Source of the DNA: Cryobacterium sp. PH31-L1
GTDB lineage: Bacteria; Actinomycetota; Actinomycetes; Actinomycetales; Microbacteriaceae
Assembly: GCF_030063145.1 (NCBI RefSeq)
Contig: NZ_JASISM010000001.1
Span: forward strand, 186,001-250,000
Reading direction: 5' to 3'
Length of the DNA: 64,000 bases
Below, piece by piece: positions 34,583-60,019 of the stretch. Position numbers and translations under genes: made by a program. How positions within the stretch are numbered: the stretch's first letter is position 1; each line of letters begins with the position of its first letter. The notes beneath the pieces are model-generated. The model saw only the letters and a list, made by a program, of their open reading frames with translations. It was not told where the DNA came from and ran no database searches.

Positions 34583-35126
34583 GCGGCGTCTGGGTGGACT
34601 TCGGCGCACGATCGTCGACGCGGCGGCGATGCATCGGTTCGGCGTGAGCCTCGCCGGCAGTCTGACGGCCGGGGACCTCGTCGTGCTCACCGGACCACTC
34701 GGGGCAGGTAAAACCACCCTCACCCGCGGCCTGGGCGAGGGGCTGCAGGTGCGCGGAGCCGTCACCAGCCCCACCTTCGTGCTCGCCCGCACGCATCCGA
34801 GCCTGATCGGCGGGCCGCCTTTCGTGCATGTCGACGCCTACCGCCTCGGCAGTGCCATGGAACTCGACGACCTCGACATTGATTTCGCCCGCTCCATCGT
34901 GGTGGTGGAGTGGGGCCGCGGCCTGCTCGACGGGATCACTGAATCCTGGCTGGACATCGAGATCGAGCGACCGCAGGGTCGTGCGGCTGCAGCGTGTGAA
35001 ACGGATGCGGCGGCATCCGCTCCAGGCGCTGTTCTCGACCTTGATCACGATGTCGACGAACCGCGATCTCTGACCCTCACCGGTCACGGCCAGCGCTGGG
35101 CGCGTCTGGCCGACGCAATGCCGTGA
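34575..35126 (+). CDS. tsaE: tRNA threonylcarbamoyladenosine biosynthesis ATPase TsaE
   Basis: 183 residues. It is the P-loop ATPase of the TsaB-TsaD-TsaE complex that makes t6A37 on tRNA. Walker A GPLGAGKTTL at residues 40-49, then TSPTFVLARTHPS and HVDAYRLGSAMELDDLD with the conserved aspartates, and VVVEWGRGLLD. The C-terminal ~45 residues are an Ala-rich extension. Normally tsaB follows; here 6.4 kb intervenes. Confidence 0.94.
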   Translation: MAERRLGGLRRTIVDAAAMHRFGVSLAGSLTAGDLVVLTGPLGAGKTTLTRGLGEGLQVRGAVTSPTFVLARTHPSLIGGPPFVHVDAYRLGSAMELDDLDIDFARSIVVVEWGRGLLDGITESWLDIEIERPQGRAAAACETDAAASAPGAVLDLDHDVDEPRSLTLTGHGQRWARLADAMP

Positions 35127-35257
35127 CTTGGGCCCTGGCGCCCACTATCGAGCCCCCTCGCTCTGATCGGGCTGCGGCGGGGCTGATCGACCTGCGCGCC
35201 GGCCTGGTGGTCGGCGTGGCAGCCACTGCGCCGCCGGCGCGGGACGCCAGTTCTCCC

Positions 35258-35959
35258 CTACTTGAGCAGGGCTACGTCGGAGACGAGCTCGATGTGCGAG
35301 AGCATCGCCGCGGTCGCCGCTGCGGCGTCCTGCGCCCGGATCGCCTCGGTGATGGTGCGGTGTGAGGCGAGGGACTGCTCCGGCCGGCCCGGCTGAGCGA
35401 GGGATTCGAGCCGGGTTTCGAGTATCATCTCTGCGATGAACGTCATGAGCTGGGCGAGCACAGGGGAGTGAGCAGCCGCAGTGACGGCTTGGTGGAAGAG
35501 CTCGTCGCCGTGCGCCCCGCGGTCGCCGACGGCGATTTCCTCTGCCATCGCCCGGAGCGCATCCTCGATCGCGAGCAGGTCGGCATCCGTTCGGCGATCC
35601 GCGGCGAGCTCAGCGAGTTTGACTTCGAGGGTGGTGCGGGCTTCGACAATCTCGGGCAGCCGGTTGCGGTGCTCCCGCAGCCCACTGATCACCGTTGCGA
35701 CGCTCGGCCGATAAACGAGAACGGCGCCGGTGCCGTGCTTAACATCGATGACGCCGAGCACTTCGAGGGCCACGAGTGCCTGTGCGAGCGTGGCTCGGGA
35801 AACGCCGAGGCGTTCGGCGAGGTCGCGCTCGGCGGGCAACAGGTCGCCGGGGCCGAGGTGGGCTGACTCGATGTAGGCGAGAAGCTGGGCCACGAGTTGT
35901 TCGTACAGGCGTGGTTTCGTGACGCGTATGAGCGGCTGGGGCATTGCGTCCCTCGTCAT
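35258..35959 (-). CDS. GntR/FadR-family transcriptional regulator
   Basis: 233 residues from the ATG at 35959, which has GGGGAGG upstream; a longer frame back to 36046 would cover the promoter. Winged HTH at ~15-80 (LPAERDLAERLGVSRATLAQ, then KHGTGAVL), followed by an all-helical FCD effector domain (~95-230). FCD members usually sense organic acids. It is divergent from the dicarboxylate carrier, so it likely controls that operon; the effector is inferred to be its substrate. The 131 nt between tsaE and this gene hold no recognised gene. Confidence 0.88.
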   Translation of the reverse strand: MTRDAMPQPLIRVTKPRLYEQLVAQLLAYIESAHLGPGDLLPAERDLAERLGVSRATLAQALVALEVLGVIDVKHGTGAVLVYRPSVATVISGLREHRNRLPEIVEARTTLEVKLAELAADRRTDADLLAIEDALRAMAEEIAVGDRGAHGDELFHQAVTAAAHSPVLAQLMTFIAEMILETRLESLAQPGRPEQSLASHRTITEAIRAQDAAAATAAMLSHIELVSDVALLK

Positions 35960-36001
35960 GTCTGCCTCCCCATCAGTATTCGACCCAAGGTTACACGGCT
36001 C

Positions 36002-36040
36002 TTGACAAAGTCGCCTACTGTCTAGGAGGCTAGTCCAGTG
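36002..36040 (+). promoter_or_regulatory. Promoter and imperfect palindrome before the carrier gene
   Basis: TTGACA at 36002-36007 is a good -35. An imperfect palindrome ACTGTCTAG-GAGG-CTAGTCCAGT (36017-36039) follows where the -10 should be. It is a candidate site for the divergent GntR regulator; the exact -10 is not clear. Confidence 0.4.
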
Positions 36041-36082
36041 AGCCAATAGCCCACATTCACCTAACCCTATGGAGGAACAACG

Positions 36083-37456
36083 ATGTCCGCTCCCGTTATC
36101 TCAATCATCATCCTGGCGGTGATGTTTCTGATCGCCACGCTTTTGCCCGTCAACATGGGGGCGTTGGCCTTCGTGGGTGCCTTCCTACTCGGTGCCGTCT
36201 TTCTCGGCATGGAGACCACCGATATTCTCGCCAATTTCCCGGGCGGGCTGTTCCTCACGCTCGTCGGGGTTACGTACCTGTTCGCGATTGCGCAGGGCAA
36301 CGGCACGATCGACCTGCTGGTGCGCGGCGCCGTGCGGCTCGTCGGCGGCCGGGTGGCCCTCATTCCGTGGGTGATGTTCGTGATCACCGCCGTGATTACC
36401 GCAGTCGGCGCGCTCTCCCCGGCGGCGGTGGCCATTGTGGCACCGATCGCGCTCGGTTTCGCCCGCAAGTACAAGATCAGCCCGCTACTGATGGGCATGA
36501 TGGTGATTCACGGCGCGCAGGGCGGCGGATTCTCGCCGATCGCCGTCTACGGCGTGATCGTGAACAGCCTCATCTCGACCACCGGGCTCGACGCGAGCCC
36601 CACTGCCGTGTTTCTCTCCAGCCTCATCTTCAACTTTCTGATCGCCGTCGTGCTGTTCATCGTGCTCGGTGGTCGAAAGCTCATGTCAAGCCGGGTCGGC
36701 CACTTCGTGGAGCAGGCCGCCGAAGCTCGCATGGCGGTGAGCGTGGGTGCACGCGCCGCCGGTGACGGTGACGTGGCGTTCAAGGGCTTCGGCTCCGGCA
36801 TCTACGGACCCCGTGACCCCGCGGGCGACGGGATGCAGGCCACGGTGACCCGCGGTGAGCGCATCCCACAACTCGTGACCGTGGCAGGCCTCATCGCGCT
36901 CGCCGTGATCGCGCTCGGTTTCAAGGTGGACGTGGGCTTTGTCGCCATCACGATTGCCGTCATCCTCGCCCTCGTCTCGCCCGAAGCGCAAAAGGGCGCG
37001 GTCAATAAGATCAGCTGGTCGACCGTGCTGCTCATCTGCGGCATGCTCACGTTCGTTGGTGTTCTCGAAGAGGCAGGCACTATCGAGTACGTATCGGGAG
37101 CGGTGGCCAACCTCGGCATGCCGCTGCTTGCGGCACTTTTGATCTGCTACATCGGTGCCGTCGTCTCGGCCTTCGCCTCGTCAACGGCCATTCTCGCCGC
37201 GCTGATTCCGCTCGCCGTGCCGTTTCTCGCAACCGGGGATATCAGCGCCATCGGCGTGATCTGCGCGCTCGCCGTCGCGTCGACCATCGTGGACGTGTCG
37301 CCGTTCTCGACCAATGGCGCTCTCGTGCTTGCGAACGCCCCAGACGACGTGGACAAGGACCGCTTCTACAAGCAGATTCTCTCCTACAGCGGAATCGTCG
37401 TCGTAGCCGGGCCGGCCATCGCCTGGGCCGTGCTCGTGCTGCCCGGTTGGCTGTAA
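36083..37456 (+). CDS. MatC-like dicarboxylate (malonate-type) carrier
   Basis: 457 residues with about 11-12 hydrophobic segments and a hydrophilic central loop (~200-260). The N-terminal half resembles the MatC_N dicarboxylate carrier domain (LPVNMGALAFVGAFLLGAVF; FPGGLFLTLVGVTYLFAIAQ; ALSPAAVAIVAPIALGFARK; MVIHGAQGGGFSPIAVYG). MatC imports malonate in rhizobia, but other ion-transporter carriers share the fold. GGAGGAAC precedes the ATG. It is the first gene of a run with a CoA-transferase and a carboxyltransferase. Confidence 0.75.
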   Translation: MSAPVISIIILAVMFLIATLLPVNMGALAFVGAFLLGAVFLGMETTDILANFPGGLFLTLVGVTYLFAIAQGNGTIDLLVRGAVRLVGGRVALIPWVMFVITAVITAVGALSPAAVAIVAPIALGFARKYKISPLLMGMMVIHGAQGGGFSPIAVYGVIVNSLISTTGLDASPTAVFLSSLIFNFLIAVVLFIVLGGRKLMSSRVGHFVEQAAEARMAVSVGARAAGDGDVAFKGFGSGIYGPRDPAGDGMQATVTRGERIPQLVTVAGLIALAVIALGFKVDVGFVAITIAVILALVSPEAQKGAVNKISWSTVLLICGMLTFVGVLEEAGTIEYVSGAVANLGMPLLAALLICYIGAVVSAFASSTAILAALIPLAVPFLATGDISAIGVICALAVASTIVDVSPFSTNGALVLANAPDDVDKDRFYKQILSYSGIVVVAGPAIAWAVLVLPGWL

Positions 37457-37492
37457 CCCGCCACCTGCCGAAATACTGAGAAAGGACCGAAC

Positions 37493-38713
37493 ATGAATAC
37501 CGACATCCGCTCCGAAAACGGTACGCAGGGCCCGCTCTCGGGCTACCTCGTCGTAGACCTGAGCCGCGCGCTTGCGGGCCCGCACGCCACCATGATGCTC
37601 GCCGATCTCGGCGCACGCGTGATCAAAGTGGAGAACCCCAGCACGGGAGATGACACCCGCGGCTGGGGCCCTCCCTTCGTGGGCCCAGCGAACGATCCGC
37701 AGTCCACCTACTTTCTCTCCTGCAACCGCAACAAGGAGTCGATCGCCCTCGATCTGAAGAGTGACGACGGGCGTGAGGTGCTCAGCGAGTTGCTGCTGCG
37801 CGCCGACGTTGTAGTGGAGAACTTTCGTCCGGGGGTACTTGACAGGCTCGGCTTCTCGCCCGAGGCGATGCACGCCCTCAATCCGGCCCTGGTGATTCTC
37901 TCGATCACCGGTTTCGGCCACGACGGCCCCGAATCGAGCCGCAGCGGCTACGACCAGATTCTGCAGGGCGAGGCCGGCCTGATGTCGCTCACCGGCGCAG
38001 GCCCCGACGACCCGCAGCGTGTGGGCGTGCCCATCGCCGACCTCCTCTCGGGCATGTACGGCGCGTTCGGGCTGCTCGCGGCGCTTCTCGAGCGAGAGCG
38101 CACCGGGCGCGGGCAGGTCGTGCGCACCTCGCTGCTGGCCGCGCTCGTGGGAGTGCACGCCTTCCAAGGCACCCGCGCCACCGTGGCAGGCGAGGTGCCA
38201 GAAGCACGGGGCAACCACCATCCATCTATCGCGCCCTACGGCCTGTTTTCCTGCCGCGGTGGCAGCGTGCAGATCAGCATCGGCAGCGAGAAACTCTGGG
38301 CCACCTTCGCCGAGGAGTTCGGCCTTGATGCGGCGAGAGCCGAGTGGGCCAGCAACGCGCACCGGGTGCGCAACCGGACGAGCCTCACGGCTGCGATAGA
38401 AAATGTCTTCGGCGAGTTCGATGCGGTAACGCTGCTGCAGAAGCTTGCCGATGCCGGGATTCCGGCCGGGAAGGTGCGTTCGCTGGACGAGGTCTATAAA
38501 TGGGATCAGGTTTTGTCGCAGGGGCTGCTGATCGACGTGGAGCACGAGGTGCTCGGCAGGATCAGTCTCCCCGGTCCACCGCTTCGGTTCTTCGGACCCG
38601 CCGATACGGTCGAAACGACCAACACGATGCACTCCGCTCCGCCGGTGCTCGACCAGCACGGCACGGACATTCGAAGCTGGCTCAACCGCTCACTGGAAGG
38701 TATCTCACGATGA
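37493..38713 (+). CDS. Family III (CaiB/BaiF) CoA-transferase
   Basis: 406 residues. Family III enzymes move CoA between carboxylic acids through an aspartyl intermediate. Start GYLVVDLSRALAGPHATMML; ADLGARVIKVENPSTGDDTR; NRNKESIALDLKSDDGREVL; the catalytic aspartate is probably in SGYDQILQGEAGLMSLTG (~residue 153). The last segment has RFFGPADTVE. It overlaps the next gene by 4 nt (ATGA). With a carrier upstream it should activate the imported acid to a CoA thioester. Confidence 0.9.
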   Translation: MNTDIRSENGTQGPLSGYLVVDLSRALAGPHATMMLADLGARVIKVENPSTGDDTRGWGPPFVGPANDPQSTYFLSCNRNKESIALDLKSDDGREVLSELLLRADVVVENFRPGVLDRLGFSPEAMHALNPALVILSITGFGHDGPESSRSGYDQILQGEAGLMSLTGAGPDDPQRVGVPIADLLSGMYGAFGLLAALLERERTGRGQVVRTSLLAALVGVHAFQGTRATVAGEVPEARGNHHPSIAPYGLFSCRGGSVQISIGSEKLWATFAEEFGLDAARAEWASNAHRVRNRTSLTAAIENVFGEFDAVTLLQKLADAGIPAGKVRSLDEVYKWDQVLSQGLLIDVEHEVLGRISLPGPPLRFFGPADTVETTNTMHSAPPVLDQHGTDIRSWLNRSLEGISR

Positions 38714-40221
38714 CGACCGACGCCGCGCTCGCAACCCGCCACCTCAACGCCACGGAGCTCATCGACGTGGTGCTCGACAACGGCTCCTTCACGAGCTGGG
38801 ATCAGCCCGTGGTCGACCCCGCCCCGAATGAGGAGTACCGGGCCGACCTCGTGAAGGCCCGCGCGAAAAGCGGCACCGACGAGTCGGTGCTCACCGGCGA
38901 GGGGCTGATCCGCGGCCGCCGGGTGGCGATCGTGGTGAGCGAGTTCGCATTTCTCGCCGGATCGATCGGGCTTTCTGCTGCCGACAGAATTGTGAAGGCG
39001 ATCGAACTGGCCACACGCGAGGGGTTGCCGGTCTTGGCCGGACCGGCATCCGGCGGGACCCGCATGCAGGAAGGCACGCTGGCTTTTTTGTCGATGGTGA
39101 AAATCACGGCGGCGGTGCGCGCGCACCGGGAGGCGGGGCATCCGTATCTGGTGTACCTGCGGCACCCAACCACGGGCGGGGTGATGGCATCATGGGGGTC
39201 GCTCGGGCACGTGACGGTTGCCGAGCCGGGGGCGTTGCTCGGGTTCCTCGGCCCGCGCGTCTATGAGGCGCTCTACGACAAGAAGTTTCCGGAGAACGTG
39301 CAGGTCTCCGAAAACCTGTTCAACCAGGGGCTGATCGACGCCGTCGTGCCGCCGGAACAACTGCCAGAGATCGTGCACCGCGCGCTCATTATTCTCACCG
39401 ACCGGACTTCCGCGTCGGTGGCGGCCCCGGAAACCGTGAACGTGCGGCCAGCGCCTGACGACGCGTGGGCATCCGTTCAAATTTCGCGAAACCCGCGGCG
39501 GCCCGACCTACGCCAGCTGCTCGCCTATGGCGCGCACGACGTGCTGCCGCTTAACGGCACGGGCGAGGGCGAGAAAGACCCGGGACTCATGCTCGCCATG
39601 GCACGGTTCGGGCAGCAGAGCTGCATAGTGCTCGGGCATATTCGGCCGCGGCCCTCGCAAGACACGAAGATGGGCCCTGGATCTCTGCGGGAGGCTCGCC
39701 GCGGAATGCGCCTGGCGGAAGAGCTCGGAATTCCGCTGCTCACCGTGATCGACACCGCCGGCGCCGCACTATCGAAGGAGGCCGAGGAGGGCGGAATGGC
39801 CGGCGAGATAGCTCGGTCGCTGCACGAACTCATCGGCCTCAAGTCGGCCACGGTGTCGGTGCTGCTCGGCCAAGGTGCGGGGGGCGGGGCGCTGGCCCTG
39901 TTGCCGGCCGACCGCACGATCGCTGCGCAGCACTCCTGGCTCTCGCCGCTGCCTCCCGAGGGAGCAAGCGCCATCGTGTACCGCAGCACCGATTTCGCGC
40001 CGGCCGTGTCGGAGGCGCAGGGCGTGAACGTGGCCTCGCTGTTTGCCAATCGGATCGTCGACCACATCGTGGACGAGCGCCCCGACGCCGCAGACGAGGG
40101 ACGGGCGTTCTGCCAGCGCTTGGCGTCGGCCATCGAATACGAGTTGTCCGCGCTCTCCACGGTGCCCGTTGATGAACTACTTCCCCGCCGCCTGGCCCGT
40201 TACCACTCCCTCGGTCGCTGA
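38710..40221 (+). CDS. Fused AccD-AccA-type carboxyltransferase
   Basis: 503 residues in two crotonase-like halves. The first resembles the AccD beta half (VAIVVSEFAFLAGSIGLSAADR; AGPASGGTRMQEGTLAFLSM; HPTTGGVMASWGSLGHV) but lacks the N-terminal zinc ribbon. The second resembles AccA (RPSQDTKMGPGSLREARRGM; LLTVIDTAGAALSKEAEEGG; LLGQGAGGGALALLPADRTI). No biotin carboxylase or carrier gene is nearby. It may act in carboxylation using subunits encoded elsewhere, or, like MdcD/MdcE of malonate decarboxylase, in biotin-free decarboxylation. The latter is speculation. Confidence 0.85.
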   Translation: MTTDAALATRHLNATELIDVVLDNGSFTSWDQPVVDPAPNEEYRADLVKARAKSGTDESVLTGEGLIRGRRVAIVVSEFAFLAGSIGLSAADRIVKAIELATREGLPVLAGPASGGTRMQEGTLAFLSMVKITAAVRAHREAGHPYLVYLRHPTTGGVMASWGSLGHVTVAEPGALLGFLGPRVYEALYDKKFPENVQVSENLFNQGLIDAVVPPEQLPEIVHRALIILTDRTSASVAAPETVNVRPAPDDAWASVQISRNPRRPDLRQLLAYGAHDVLPLNGTGEGEKDPGLMLAMARFGQQSCIVLGHIRPRPSQDTKMGPGSLREARRGMRLAEELGIPLLTVIDTAGAALSKEAEEGGMAGEIARSLHELIGLKSATVSVLLGQGAGGGALALLPADRTIAAQHSWLSPLPPEGASAIVYRSTDFAPAVSEAQGVNVASLFANRIVDHIVDERPDAADEGRAFCQRLASAIEYELSALSTVPVDELLPRRLARYHSLGR

Positions 40222-40230
40222 CCCCTCGTC

Positions 40231-40349
40231 ATCTCGGTGTGGTGCATGGTGTCTGCTGCGCCCCGTTCGGCGATTACCCCGTGGGCCAGGTTTGCCATGC
40301 CGGCCAGAACGTTTTTTGGCCCCGTTGGCTCGGTGCATGTCGGTGGGCC
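40231..40349 (-). pseudogene. Chimeric relic of a TSUP exporter gene joined to a tsaB fragment, inverted
   Basis: Read on the minus strand, 40349-40286 matches the TSUP gene at about 41283-41346 (PTDMHRANGAKK versus STDIHRANGAKN) with a one-base insertion in an A-run that breaks the frame. It then runs directly into 40290-40231, which matches tsaB at about 41639-41700 (encoding GVIAERGAADTM versus GVIAERGEADTM). The ~290 bp between these parts in the intact locus is missing. Both parts differ from the intact copies at many, mostly third-position sites, so this is an old relic. Confidence 0.8.
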
Positions 40350-40439
40350 GAATTCTCGTCAAGGCTTGCCTAGGCGATAATCGAACGAGACGAGCAGGGG
40401 CCCTGGGCTGCCCGATGTTGGCCACGAAAGGACACGTCC

Positions 40440-40763
40440 ATGATGCAAGCGATTCTGGTGGGGCGACTCGGCGGCGGCCATGGCACGCTTGATCTGGAAA
40501 TGTTTTCCTACAGGCGACTCGCGCTGCACGGGGTCACCTTTCGCACCCGCTCCACCCAGGACAAGATCGCCCTCGTCGCCGCGCTGCGTGCCGACGTCGA
40601 CCTTGACTCGCCGGTACTTCGACCGCTCATCGACGGGATCATGCCGTGGACCGAGGCCAACGCGGCCCAGATTCTGATGCGCACCAACTCATCCCTCGGC
40701 AAGATTGTGCTCGCAGTCGGCGACGCGGCCGCCGAGAATTCGAACACGGGAAACTCTTACTAA
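40440..40763 (+). pseudogene. Remnant of a quinone oxidoreductase (zinc-type alcohol dehydrogenase family), internal deletion
   Basis: 107 residues. After MMQAILV the frame reads GRLGGGHGTLDLEMFSYRRL, HGVTFRTRSTQDKIALVA and RTNSSLGKIVLAVG, which match only the last ~100 residues of ~320-residue quinone oxidoreductases. The NAD(P)-binding fold and catalytic half are absent. The first residues resemble the normal start of the family, so an in-frame internal deletion is likely. AAAGGA precedes the ATG, and the stop overlaps the TSUP start, so the stub may still be translated. Confidence 0.75.
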
Positions 40764-41530
40764 TGACTCTTCTTGAAGGCGCGATCATCCTGGTCGCCGG
40801 AATTGCCGCTGGCATCATCAATGTGGTCGCCGGCGCTGGAACCCTGATCACCTTTCCCACCCTGCTCGCCCTGGGTGTCCCCCCGATCACGGCGAACGTC
40901 TCCAACACGGTTGGTCTAGTTCCCGGGTCGATCGCCGGAGCTTACGGTTATCGCCGGGAACTGCGCTCGCAGTGGCGGCCCGTGGCCTGGATGGCGGTAT
41001 TCTCGGCCGTAGGCGGAGTGATCGGCGGGTTGCTGCTGCTGATCCTGCCCGAGGAGGCCTTCTCGGCGGTCGTTCCGTTCCTGCTGCTGCTCGCCGCCGT
41101 GCTCTCCGCGATCCAGCCCCGCGTGGCCCGTTACGTGCGGCGCAAGTCCCCCGAAGGCACCACCACCGACACTCGGCCGATCACGTTCGGCCTCGTGCTC
41201 GGTATCCTCGGCACGGGGGTCTATGGGGGATACTTCGGCGCAGCGCAGGGAGTGGTGCTGTTGGCACTGCTGGGTATTCTGTGGTCCACCGACATACACC
41301 GGGCCAACGGTGCCAAGAATGTGCTGGCCGGCATGGCCAACCTCGTCTCCGCGATTATTTTCATTTCCAGCGGCACGGTGGACTGGGTGATCGCTCTACT
41401 GATCGGCGTTGGTTCTGCTTTCGGTGGCTGGCTCGGTGCCCGCATCGGGCGAAGGCTATCGGCTCCGGTATTGCGTGCGATCCTGGTGATCGTTGCCCTG
41501 ACCGCCGCCGTCGTGCTCTTTCTGACCTGA
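40763..41530 (+). CDS. TSUP (TauE/SafE) family anion exporter
   Basis: 255 residues from the ATG at 40763, overlapping the previous stop (TAATG). About 7-8 hydrophobic segments with the two half-repeats typical of the family (GIINVVAGAGTLITFPTLLA; GVYGGYFGAAQGVVLLALLG; STDIHRANGAKNVLAGMANL). Members move sulfite, sulfonates or organic anions; the substrate here is unknown. A piece of a related copy lies inverted at 40286-40349. Confidence 0.88.
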   Translation: MTLLEGAIILVAGIAAGIINVVAGAGTLITFPTLLALGVPPITANVSNTVGLVPGSIAGAYGYRRELRSQWRPVAWMAVFSAVGGVIGGLLLLILPEEAFSAVVPFLLLLAAVLSAIQPRVARYVRRKSPEGTTTDTRPITFGLVLGILGTGVYGGYFGAAQGVVLLALLGILWSTDIHRANGAKNVLAGMANLVSAIIFISSGTVDWVIALLIGVGSAFGGWLGARIGRRLSAPVLRAILVIVALTAAVVLFLT

Positions 41531-41531
41531 G

Positions 41532-41584
41532 CGCTGGCCTATCAAAGCCAGCCGCGCGAAGAGCTGGCCTGTCAAAGCTAGGCT
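41532..41584 (+). repeat. Two direct copies of a 19-nt motif before tsaB
   Basis: GCTGGCCTATCAAAGCCAG (41532-41550) and GCTGGCCTGTCAAAGCTAG (41562-41580) differ at two positions. Each is an imperfect hairpin (CTGGC/GCCAG). The second runs into the TAGGCT box (41579-41584) that ends 6 nt before the tsaB GTG, so the pair could be operator sites on a leaderless promoter. Confidence 0.5.
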
Positions 41585-41590
41585 GAACGG

Positions 41591-42226
41591 GTGCTACTTG
41601 CCATCGACACCTCCGCCGGCACCAGCGTCGCCGTCGTCGACCTTGCCCGTGGAGTCATCGCCGAACGCGGCGAAGCAGACACGATGCGTCACGCCGAAAT
41701 AGTCGGCCCGTTCATTCTGGAATGTCTGCAAGAAGCGCAGGTCGCCCCGGCTGACCTCTCCGGCGTCGTCGGCGGCATGGGTCCAGGCCCGTTCACCGGC
41801 CTGCGAGTCGGTATCGCATCGGCCCGCGTCTTCGCCCTCGGTGCTGGCACTCCGCTCGTACCCGTGATCAGCCACGACGCCATTGCCTACGGCCACTACC
41901 GTGGCGGCCACACCGGGCCCCTCGTCGTCGTCACCGACGCCCGGCGCCGCGAAGTCTACTGGAGCGCCTATTCCCACGCGGATGCCGTGGGCCTGCCCGT
42001 GCGTGTCGGCCAGCCCGGCCTCGCCAAACCGGCCGACCTCGACGACCTGAACTGGCTGCACGCCGGGTGGCCGCGCTTGGACGCCGCCACGGTGTCGGCC
42101 GGCGAGCTTGGTCTGGTCGCTGAGTTGAGCTATGCGCACGGGCGCCCGTTCGCAGTGAATGAGCCGCTCTACCTGCGCTCACCCGACGTCACCCTCTCGA
42201 ATGGTCCGAAGCGGGTCAGCCGATGA
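41591..42226 (+). CDS. tsaB: tRNA threonylcarbamoyladenosine biosynthesis protein TsaB
   Basis: 211 residues from GTG 41591. TsaB is the scaffold paralogue of TsaD in the t6A complex. Start LLAIDTSAGTSVAVVDLARG; GGMGPGPFTGLRVGIASARV and VVTDARRREVYW are typical. No ribosome site, but TAGGCT ends 6 nt upstream. It overlaps rimI by 4 nt. A diverged fragment of this gene is found inverted at 40231-40290. Confidence 0.94.
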   Translation: MLLAIDTSAGTSVAVVDLARGVIAERGEADTMRHAEIVGPFILECLQEAQVAPADLSGVVGGMGPGPFTGLRVGIASARVFALGAGTPLVPVISHDAIAYGHYRGGHTGPLVVVTDARRREVYWSAYSHADAVGLPVRVGQPGLAKPADLDDLNWLHAGWPRLDAATVSAGELGLVAELSYAHGRPFAVNEPLYLRSPDVTLSNGPKRVSR

Positions 42227-58771: not shown

Positions 58772-58845
58772 CGTTCACCGCGCCAGCTGCCGATGGCTGC
58801 ACCACCTATAGCTGGCGCGGTGAACGGTACCTGGCGCGGCGGCGG
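58772..58845. repeat. Palindromic repeat, copy A, after glpD
   Basis: Perfect 17-bp arms at 58772-58788 and 58810-58826 (CGTTCACCGCGCCAGCT and complement) around 21 nt, then GTACCTGGCGCGG. A similar sequence in the same orientation lies at 59949-60019 beyond the next gene. It may also end the glpD transcript. Confidence 0.7.
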
Positions 58846-58847
58846 CG

Positions 58848-59873
58848 CTAGCGGCATCGAGGGACGCCGATGCGCGTGAGGTAGGCGCCGAACGTCGTCA
58901 GGTCGCGTGCGATCTGCCAGTCCCACCGCGAAACGGACGGCCCGCACGCGCGAATTCGGTCCTCACGATGCTTCTCGTCCATGACGACTTCGGCGGTTGT
59001 GCGGCCTCGGGTGTACGCGTTCTTGACGTATTTGCCGAGCCCGTCGAACTCGCCGACCCTGTTGATGCTTCGCCAGAAGAAGTCGACAAAGGCAATGAAC
59101 CCCGCGGCATCGTCGAAGCGCACCTGCAGCTCGGGAGCGGCGAACCCAAGCAGGAACATGTGTGCGCGGCTGATCGATTCCCCGCCTGAATCGGACTGCG
59201 TAGAAGCGAAGTCCCCGGCGCGGAGTGCGGCGGCCTTGCCATAGCGTCGACCAGAGCTTTCGAGTGCGTCGAGGGCGGCCTGTAACTCGTCCCGTGTGGC
59301 CAGTGTCGTTCCCGAGCTGCTTCCGGGAGACATCAGGCGGGGCACGTGGATGGCCCGGTCCATCATCGCGACGGACTCCGGAAATGGCAGAATGCGGGCC
59401 ATCGCGACAGCCGTCTCGGCCGCCGAGGTGACCAACAGGCCACCGCGCCTGACTGCCCCGGCTGCCAGCGCGCCCGGGACGATGGCAGAGTGCCGCACGA
59501 TGCCGGGTTTGGAACGACCGCCGGATGCCTGCGGGACGGTGACATGGACCTCCGTCGGCCAGTGAGACGGCCGGGGAAACCCCCAGATCGCCGCCGCAGA
59601 GTGGTGGGAAAACACTGGCGCATCTGCGCTGACCGCAGCGTAGGCGCGGATCCGAAAGAGGTAGCGCGCGTCGAGATCGAGGTGTTCCCAGTGCGCGGTG
59701 GGCAGGTAGACGCCCCGCCGCAGTCGCGTAACGAGGTGGTGCGTGAATTCGGTGCGGAGCGCCTCATGCAAACCGACCGCCGCAGCATCGGATGCGAGGA
59801 TGAGCCCATCGGGTCGCAGGAGAGCCGCGATCAGGTAGTTCGATGCAGATCCGGAGGGCGCCGTGGTTGCCAT
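58848..59873 (-). CDS. AbiEi-antitoxin-like protein of unknown function
   Basis: 341 residues from ATG 59873 (MATTAPSG); a start 57 nt upstream is possible. The N-terminal ~100 residues resemble the winged-helix AbiEi antitoxin fold (TEFTHHLVTRLRRGVYLPTA; DAPVFSHHSAAAIWGFPRPS). The C-terminal part contains an aspartate-rich DFFWRSINRVGEFDG that recalls the DUF559/Vsr-like region of related proteins. No cognate toxin gene is adjacent. Solitary AbiEi-like genes are frequent in Actinobacteria. It is bracketed by palindromic repeats. Confidence 0.6.
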   Translation of the reverse strand: MATTAPSGSASNYLIAALLRPDGLILASDAAAVGLHEALRTEFTHHLVTRLRRGVYLPTAHWEHLDLDARYLFRIRAYAAVSADAPVFSHHSAAAIWGFPRPSHWPTEVHVTVPQASGGRSKPGIVRHSAIVPGALAAGAVRRGGLLVTSAAETAVAMARILPFPESVAMMDRAIHVPRLMSPGSSSGTTLATRDELQAALDALESSGRRYGKAAALRAGDFASTQSDSGGESISRAHMFLLGFAAPELQVRFDDAAGFIAFVDFFWRSINRVGEFDGLGKYVKNAYTRGRTTAEVVMDEKHREDRIRACGPSVSRWDWQIARDLTTFGAYLTRIGVPRCR

Positions 59874-59948
59874 GACCCGAGAATGGCAGCGACTGGAGCG
59901 CACGGGACGCGCGCCGGAGAATCTGTGCATAACTCACCCGCGCTCACC

Positions 59949-60019
59949 ACTCACCGCGCCAGCTGCCGGTGCCCGCGCCACCTCTTGCTGGCGCGCTCAC
60001 CGGTACCGGGCGCGGTGAC
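59949..60019. repeat. Palindromic repeat, copy B, before the antiporter genes
   Basis: CTCACCGCGCCAGCTGCCG at the start and GGTACCGGGCGCGGTGA at the end match copy A at 58773-58845 in the same orientation. Pairing arms GCGCCAGC/GCTGGCGC and CACCGCGCC/GGCGCGGTG remain. Confidence 0.65.

Follow-up and report, generated by a model that had tools for sequence, protein, structure and literature searches.

The window, a 64,000-nucleotide stretch of a Cryobacterium genome (G000), was examined in a comparison across 57 genomes of the genus, its own among them, and 398 of the family. It carries, in order, tsaE, a GntR/FCD regulator gene on the minus strand, genes for a MatC transporter, a CaiB-type CoA-transferase (CoA-transferase III) and a fused carboxyltransferase, a short chimeric scar (40231-40349), the remnant of a zinc-type quinone-oxidoreductase gene, a TSUP gene (40763-41530, plus strand; Pfam TauE), tsaB (41591-42226, plus strand), rimI and tsaD. 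The regulator through the carboxyltransferase (35258-40221) form an operon for which we use the name malonate-type; the substrate that this name implies is putative and is read from the presence of MatC, the CoA-transferase and the carboxyltransferase. The scar begins within 10 bp of the end of this operon and lies between its 3′ end and the quinone-oxidoreductase promoter. The oxidoreductase gene itself (40440-40763, plus strand), 3′ of the scar, has been reduced to 107 amino acid residues by an in-frame deletion of 699 bp, and is whole in the sister genomes G011 (340 residues) and G015. With the start codon, the region upstream of it and the reading frame all preserved, a short protein may still be produced.

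Across the genus the tsaE-tsaB interval holds nothing, a second TauE-like gene (TSUP2), TSUP alone, the oxidoreductase together with TSUP, or islands of several kilobases. Depending on the species (loci L058-L076), it can be nearly absent or reach about 12 kb, and its gene content differs. Close TSUP homologues (cut-off E of at most 1e-60) are present in 20 of the 57 Cryobacterium genomes. Elsewhere in the window, a GC-rich hairpin-like element is found as a direct repeat with 85% identity (58775-58839 and 59951-60015) flanking an unassigned minus-strand gene (58848-59930), for which Pfam gave no match.

Read on the minus strand, the scar joins a piece of TSUP (TSUP′; 40349-40288) to a piece of tsaB (tsaB′; 40291-40231). 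Local alignment reveals 53 of 62 identical positions (85%, one gap) between TSUP′ and 41283-41343, and 49 of 61 (80%) between tsaB′ and 41640-41700. The corresponding alignment scores of 77 and 62 far exceed the maxima of 27 and 29 reached in 200 shuffles each, and blastn within the window gives E-values of 5e-14 and 9e-11; chance similarity is thereby excluded. A repeat search recovered the same relationship as inverted pairs, namely I1 (40231-40291 and 41640-41700; 61 nt, 80%), I3 (40313-40349 and 41283-41319; 37 nt, 86%) and I2, which is the remainder of the TSUP part. The initial annotation had described matches of about 64 bp to TSUP (41283-41346) and about 60 bp to tsaB (41639-41700), which agrees to within a few bases with the 62 and 61 bp measured here. 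It had also estimated that some 290 bp were absent between the two pieces, where we count 296 bp (41344-41639), and had placed the joint near a common ACCT, in which the pieces do overlap (40288-40291) and which is identical in G011 and G015. The one-base insertion that it reported in the TSUP part is a run of six rather than five A residues (minus strand, at about 40312-40317); it shifts the frame and has no counterpart in the scars of G011 and G015. The scar thus resembles a gene-fragment pseudogene in showing significant similarity to a functional gene while being truncated or frameshifted.

A search of its own genome returned the scar and the two intact genes as the sole matches, with no further copy. 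Mobile repeats such as a REP element, a MITE or an IS remnant, of which several genomic copies would be expected, are therefore ruled out. Nor is the scar a known structured RNA: no Rfam family matched it near the gathering score, and it occurs in only three of the 57 genomes. One might imagine that the scar is functional, as an antisense RNA or a regulatory element directed at the transcripts of TSUP and tsaB: its minus strand matches the sense strand of both genes, and transcription of the plus strand would yield RNA antisense to each. That explanation deserves almost no credence, however, as identity to the targets is just 80-86%, Rfam offers no match above threshold, and the element is absent from 54 of the 57 genomes, is being lost piecemeal in sister species and differs between copies without codon bias (see below).

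The scar is present in the genomes of the window, G011 and G015, at an identical place and with the identical junction, and these three copies represent different stages of decay. In G015, it consists of 331 bp of inverted TSUP without gap or stop, equivalent to 41013-41343 of the intact gene in the window, followed by the ACCT joint and 61 bp of tsaB. TSUP′ is 256 bp long in G011, where 75 bp have gone from its interior relative to G015, and 62 bp in the window, where 269 bp have gone in addition to the frameshift; the same 61 bp of tsaB′ follow in each. Comparison with G015 places the point of the 269-bp deletion at 40341-40354 (GCCGAATTCT), where the scar is joined straight to the conserved promoter region of the quinone-oxidoreductase. 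Such shrinkage by deletion in related lineages is again characteristic of a pseudogene. Genome G006 is nearer to the window than G015 is and yet has no scar, so that either loss or transfer has to be assumed. A 29-bp match near tsaE in G015 and G020 was considered as a second scar and discarded, as it falls inside TSUP2.

The initial annotation saw in the scar the record of an older TSUP-tsaB pair lying inverted at this very junction, and the longer versions bear on this proposal too. Such a pair would once have been functional and would later have given way to the present genes. The orientation, the co-linearity of the TSUP and tsaB pieces and a long period under coding constraint would all fit such a history. 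Against this, even the longest scar contains only internal parts of the two genes, lacking both ends of each, and the 296-bp gap is already present in it. tsaB is single-copy in all 57 Cryobacterium genomes, and within the clade the resident TSUP genes cluster together in the same way as the flanking genes. Among relatives, for which the initial annotation had suggested a comparison of tsaE-tsaB intervals, two sister genomes hold the longer scars, and no intact inverted or duplicated TSUP-tsaB pair was seen in the 57 genomes of the genus or the 398 of the family. We regard an ancestral inverted arrangement as very improbable.

The distribution of differences over codon positions indicates when the divergence arose. 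The G015 scar differs from the G015 TSUP gene at 59 sites, distributed 10/4/45 over the first, second and third codon positions, much as two working TSUP genes differ from each other, whereas the scars of G015 and G011 differ from each other at 21 sites with a distribution of 8/5/8. The latter is flatter than both the former and the pattern between the working TSUP genes of G011 and G015 (7/1/27; Fisher p 0.003 and 0.005, respectively), and is that of a sequence evolving without coding constraint, as a pseudogene does. Together, the third-position excess relative to the resident TSUP and the flat scar-to-scar pattern show that most of the divergence dates from the time when the piece was a working gene, and that it has drifted neutrally since. 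In this respect, the initial annotation, which had read the differences as divergence of a coding sequence followed by decay, was correct.

Fresh copying of the resident TSUP is an improbable origin for the scar. Phylogenetic placement rests on TSUP′, the 61 bp of tsaB′ being too short to place. In free trees the scar branches outside the clade formed by the resident TSUPs of G000, G011, G006 and G015, for which the full-length tree gives support of 97/97. Grouping the scar with the residents of G000, G011 and G015 alone was rejected on 331 columns (p-AU 0.0096) but not on the full alignment (p-AU 0.10), and grouping it with all the residents, G006 included, was not rejected (p-AU 0.11-0.28). 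The last result leaves some room for a local inverted duplication, in which the resident TSUP-tsaB region was copied in an ancestor of the three species, by template switching or by fold-back synthesis, and the copy then decayed. The intact genes are only 1 kb away, inverted copies beside their source are typical of template switching, and an old copy that had long been functional would be compatible with the clade that was not rejected. A truncated internal fragment could hardly have remained functional, however, and third positions account for 45 of the 59 sites at which it differs from the resident TSUP while the scar-to-scar differences are flat, which puts most of the divergence before the loss of function; the position outside the resident clade in the free trees argues in the same direction. 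On balance, we judge a local duplication unlikely.

The operon beside the scar has a different location elsewhere in the genus. In other Cryobacterium species it lies between purC and purD, reading toward the end of purD; in G000, G011 and G015 that site is empty and purC follows purD. At the new place in these three genomes, no more than about 10 bp separate either end of the moved operon from the stop codon of its outermost gene. The region to the right of the scar, upstream of the oxidoreductase, is common to G035, in which the oxidoreductase directly follows TSUP2. At third positions, G011 and G015 differ by 8-13% within the operon, compared with 20-32% in glmS, alr, tsaE, TSUP, tsaB and tsaD. 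The neutral divergence between the G011 and G015 scars, which were used for this comparison since the short scar in the window yields too small numbers, is 8% and fits the operon rather than the backbone genes. This agreement suggests that the scar travelled between lineages together with the operon.

The tract from MatC to the carboxyltransferase (36300-40220) is about 96% identical between G011 and G015 (89-98% by 300-bp bins). The window shows 84-98% identity to one or the other over this tract, whereas the flanking genes group it with G011, a pattern which, from the alignments, we take as a sign of interspecies recombination. At the other border of the operon, two short pieces of TSUP2 are left between tsaE and the GntR gene (35119-35246) and constitute a second deletion scar. 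TSUP2 is whole at the tsaE-GntR position in G015, and the first joint of its deletion is common to the window and G011.

We consider it likely that the scar is a non-functional fragment of a relative's TSUP-tsaB region, which was taken up through illegitimate joining as the operon was inserted at this place, and which is now in the course of deletion. End joining of an illegitimate, microhomology or Ku type would have sealed a break between TSUP2 and the oxidoreductase with a relative's DNA, the TSUP-tsaB fragment being taken in as filler and the internal 296-bp loss presumably a product of joining at ACCT. Scar and operon would subsequently have spread between species through homologous recombination. 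Separate deletions are eroding the scar that the three species share. A simple integration guided by homology to the resident genes is not compatible with the inverted orientation of the fragment. A Ku gene is present in G000, G011 and G015, and the inner joint displays the 4-bp ACCT microhomology, which speaks weakly for the joining pathway, the outer joints being placed to about 10 bp only. Against this reading stand the scarless G006 and a search for the donor among the 398 family genomes and the GTDB species genomes, which yielded nothing nearer than members of the genus, at best 81-82%, and no donor carrying the operon and the TSUP-tsaB fragment joined.

The scar does no work and merely marks the edge of an insertion. 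On a small scale it illustrates how foreign filler is acquired at the edge of a relocated operon and lost again, three species having kept three stages of the decay. A caution also comes from it: a short inverted similarity beside an intact gene is not necessarily a recent local duplication, given that the codon positions here show divergence mostly as a working gene. A wider reading, to which we give little weight, is that the tsaE-tsaB interval may be a recurrent landing site at which entire catabolic islands replace one another, their ends coinciding precisely with those of genes. If this were true, capture would also stitch in inverted scraps of target-site homologues, which would serve as readable markers of past captures.

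It has been put forward that illegitimate recombination, alone or with one-sided homology, is a major source of the small variable segments that bacteria carry (PMC2884548). The scar resembles the products of homology-facilitated or strict illegitimate recombination described there in that foreign DNA is joined at short or no homology to create novel intergenic joints; it differs in that the homologous part is inverted, and the joining event itself is one that we infer. Ku/LigD end joining with filler DNA is likewise comparable, a small foreign filler lying between two joined ends in a host that encodes Ku. The scar is also like the gene-fragment pseudogenes found at bacterial insertion borders, which are truncated, frameshifted, drifting neutrally and shrinking by deletion beside inserted genes. 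It departs from these in its orientation, opposite to that of the intact homologues resident at a distance of 1 kb, and in displaying its decay in three stages in three species; it is an ordinary pseudogene scar with an unusually complete record.
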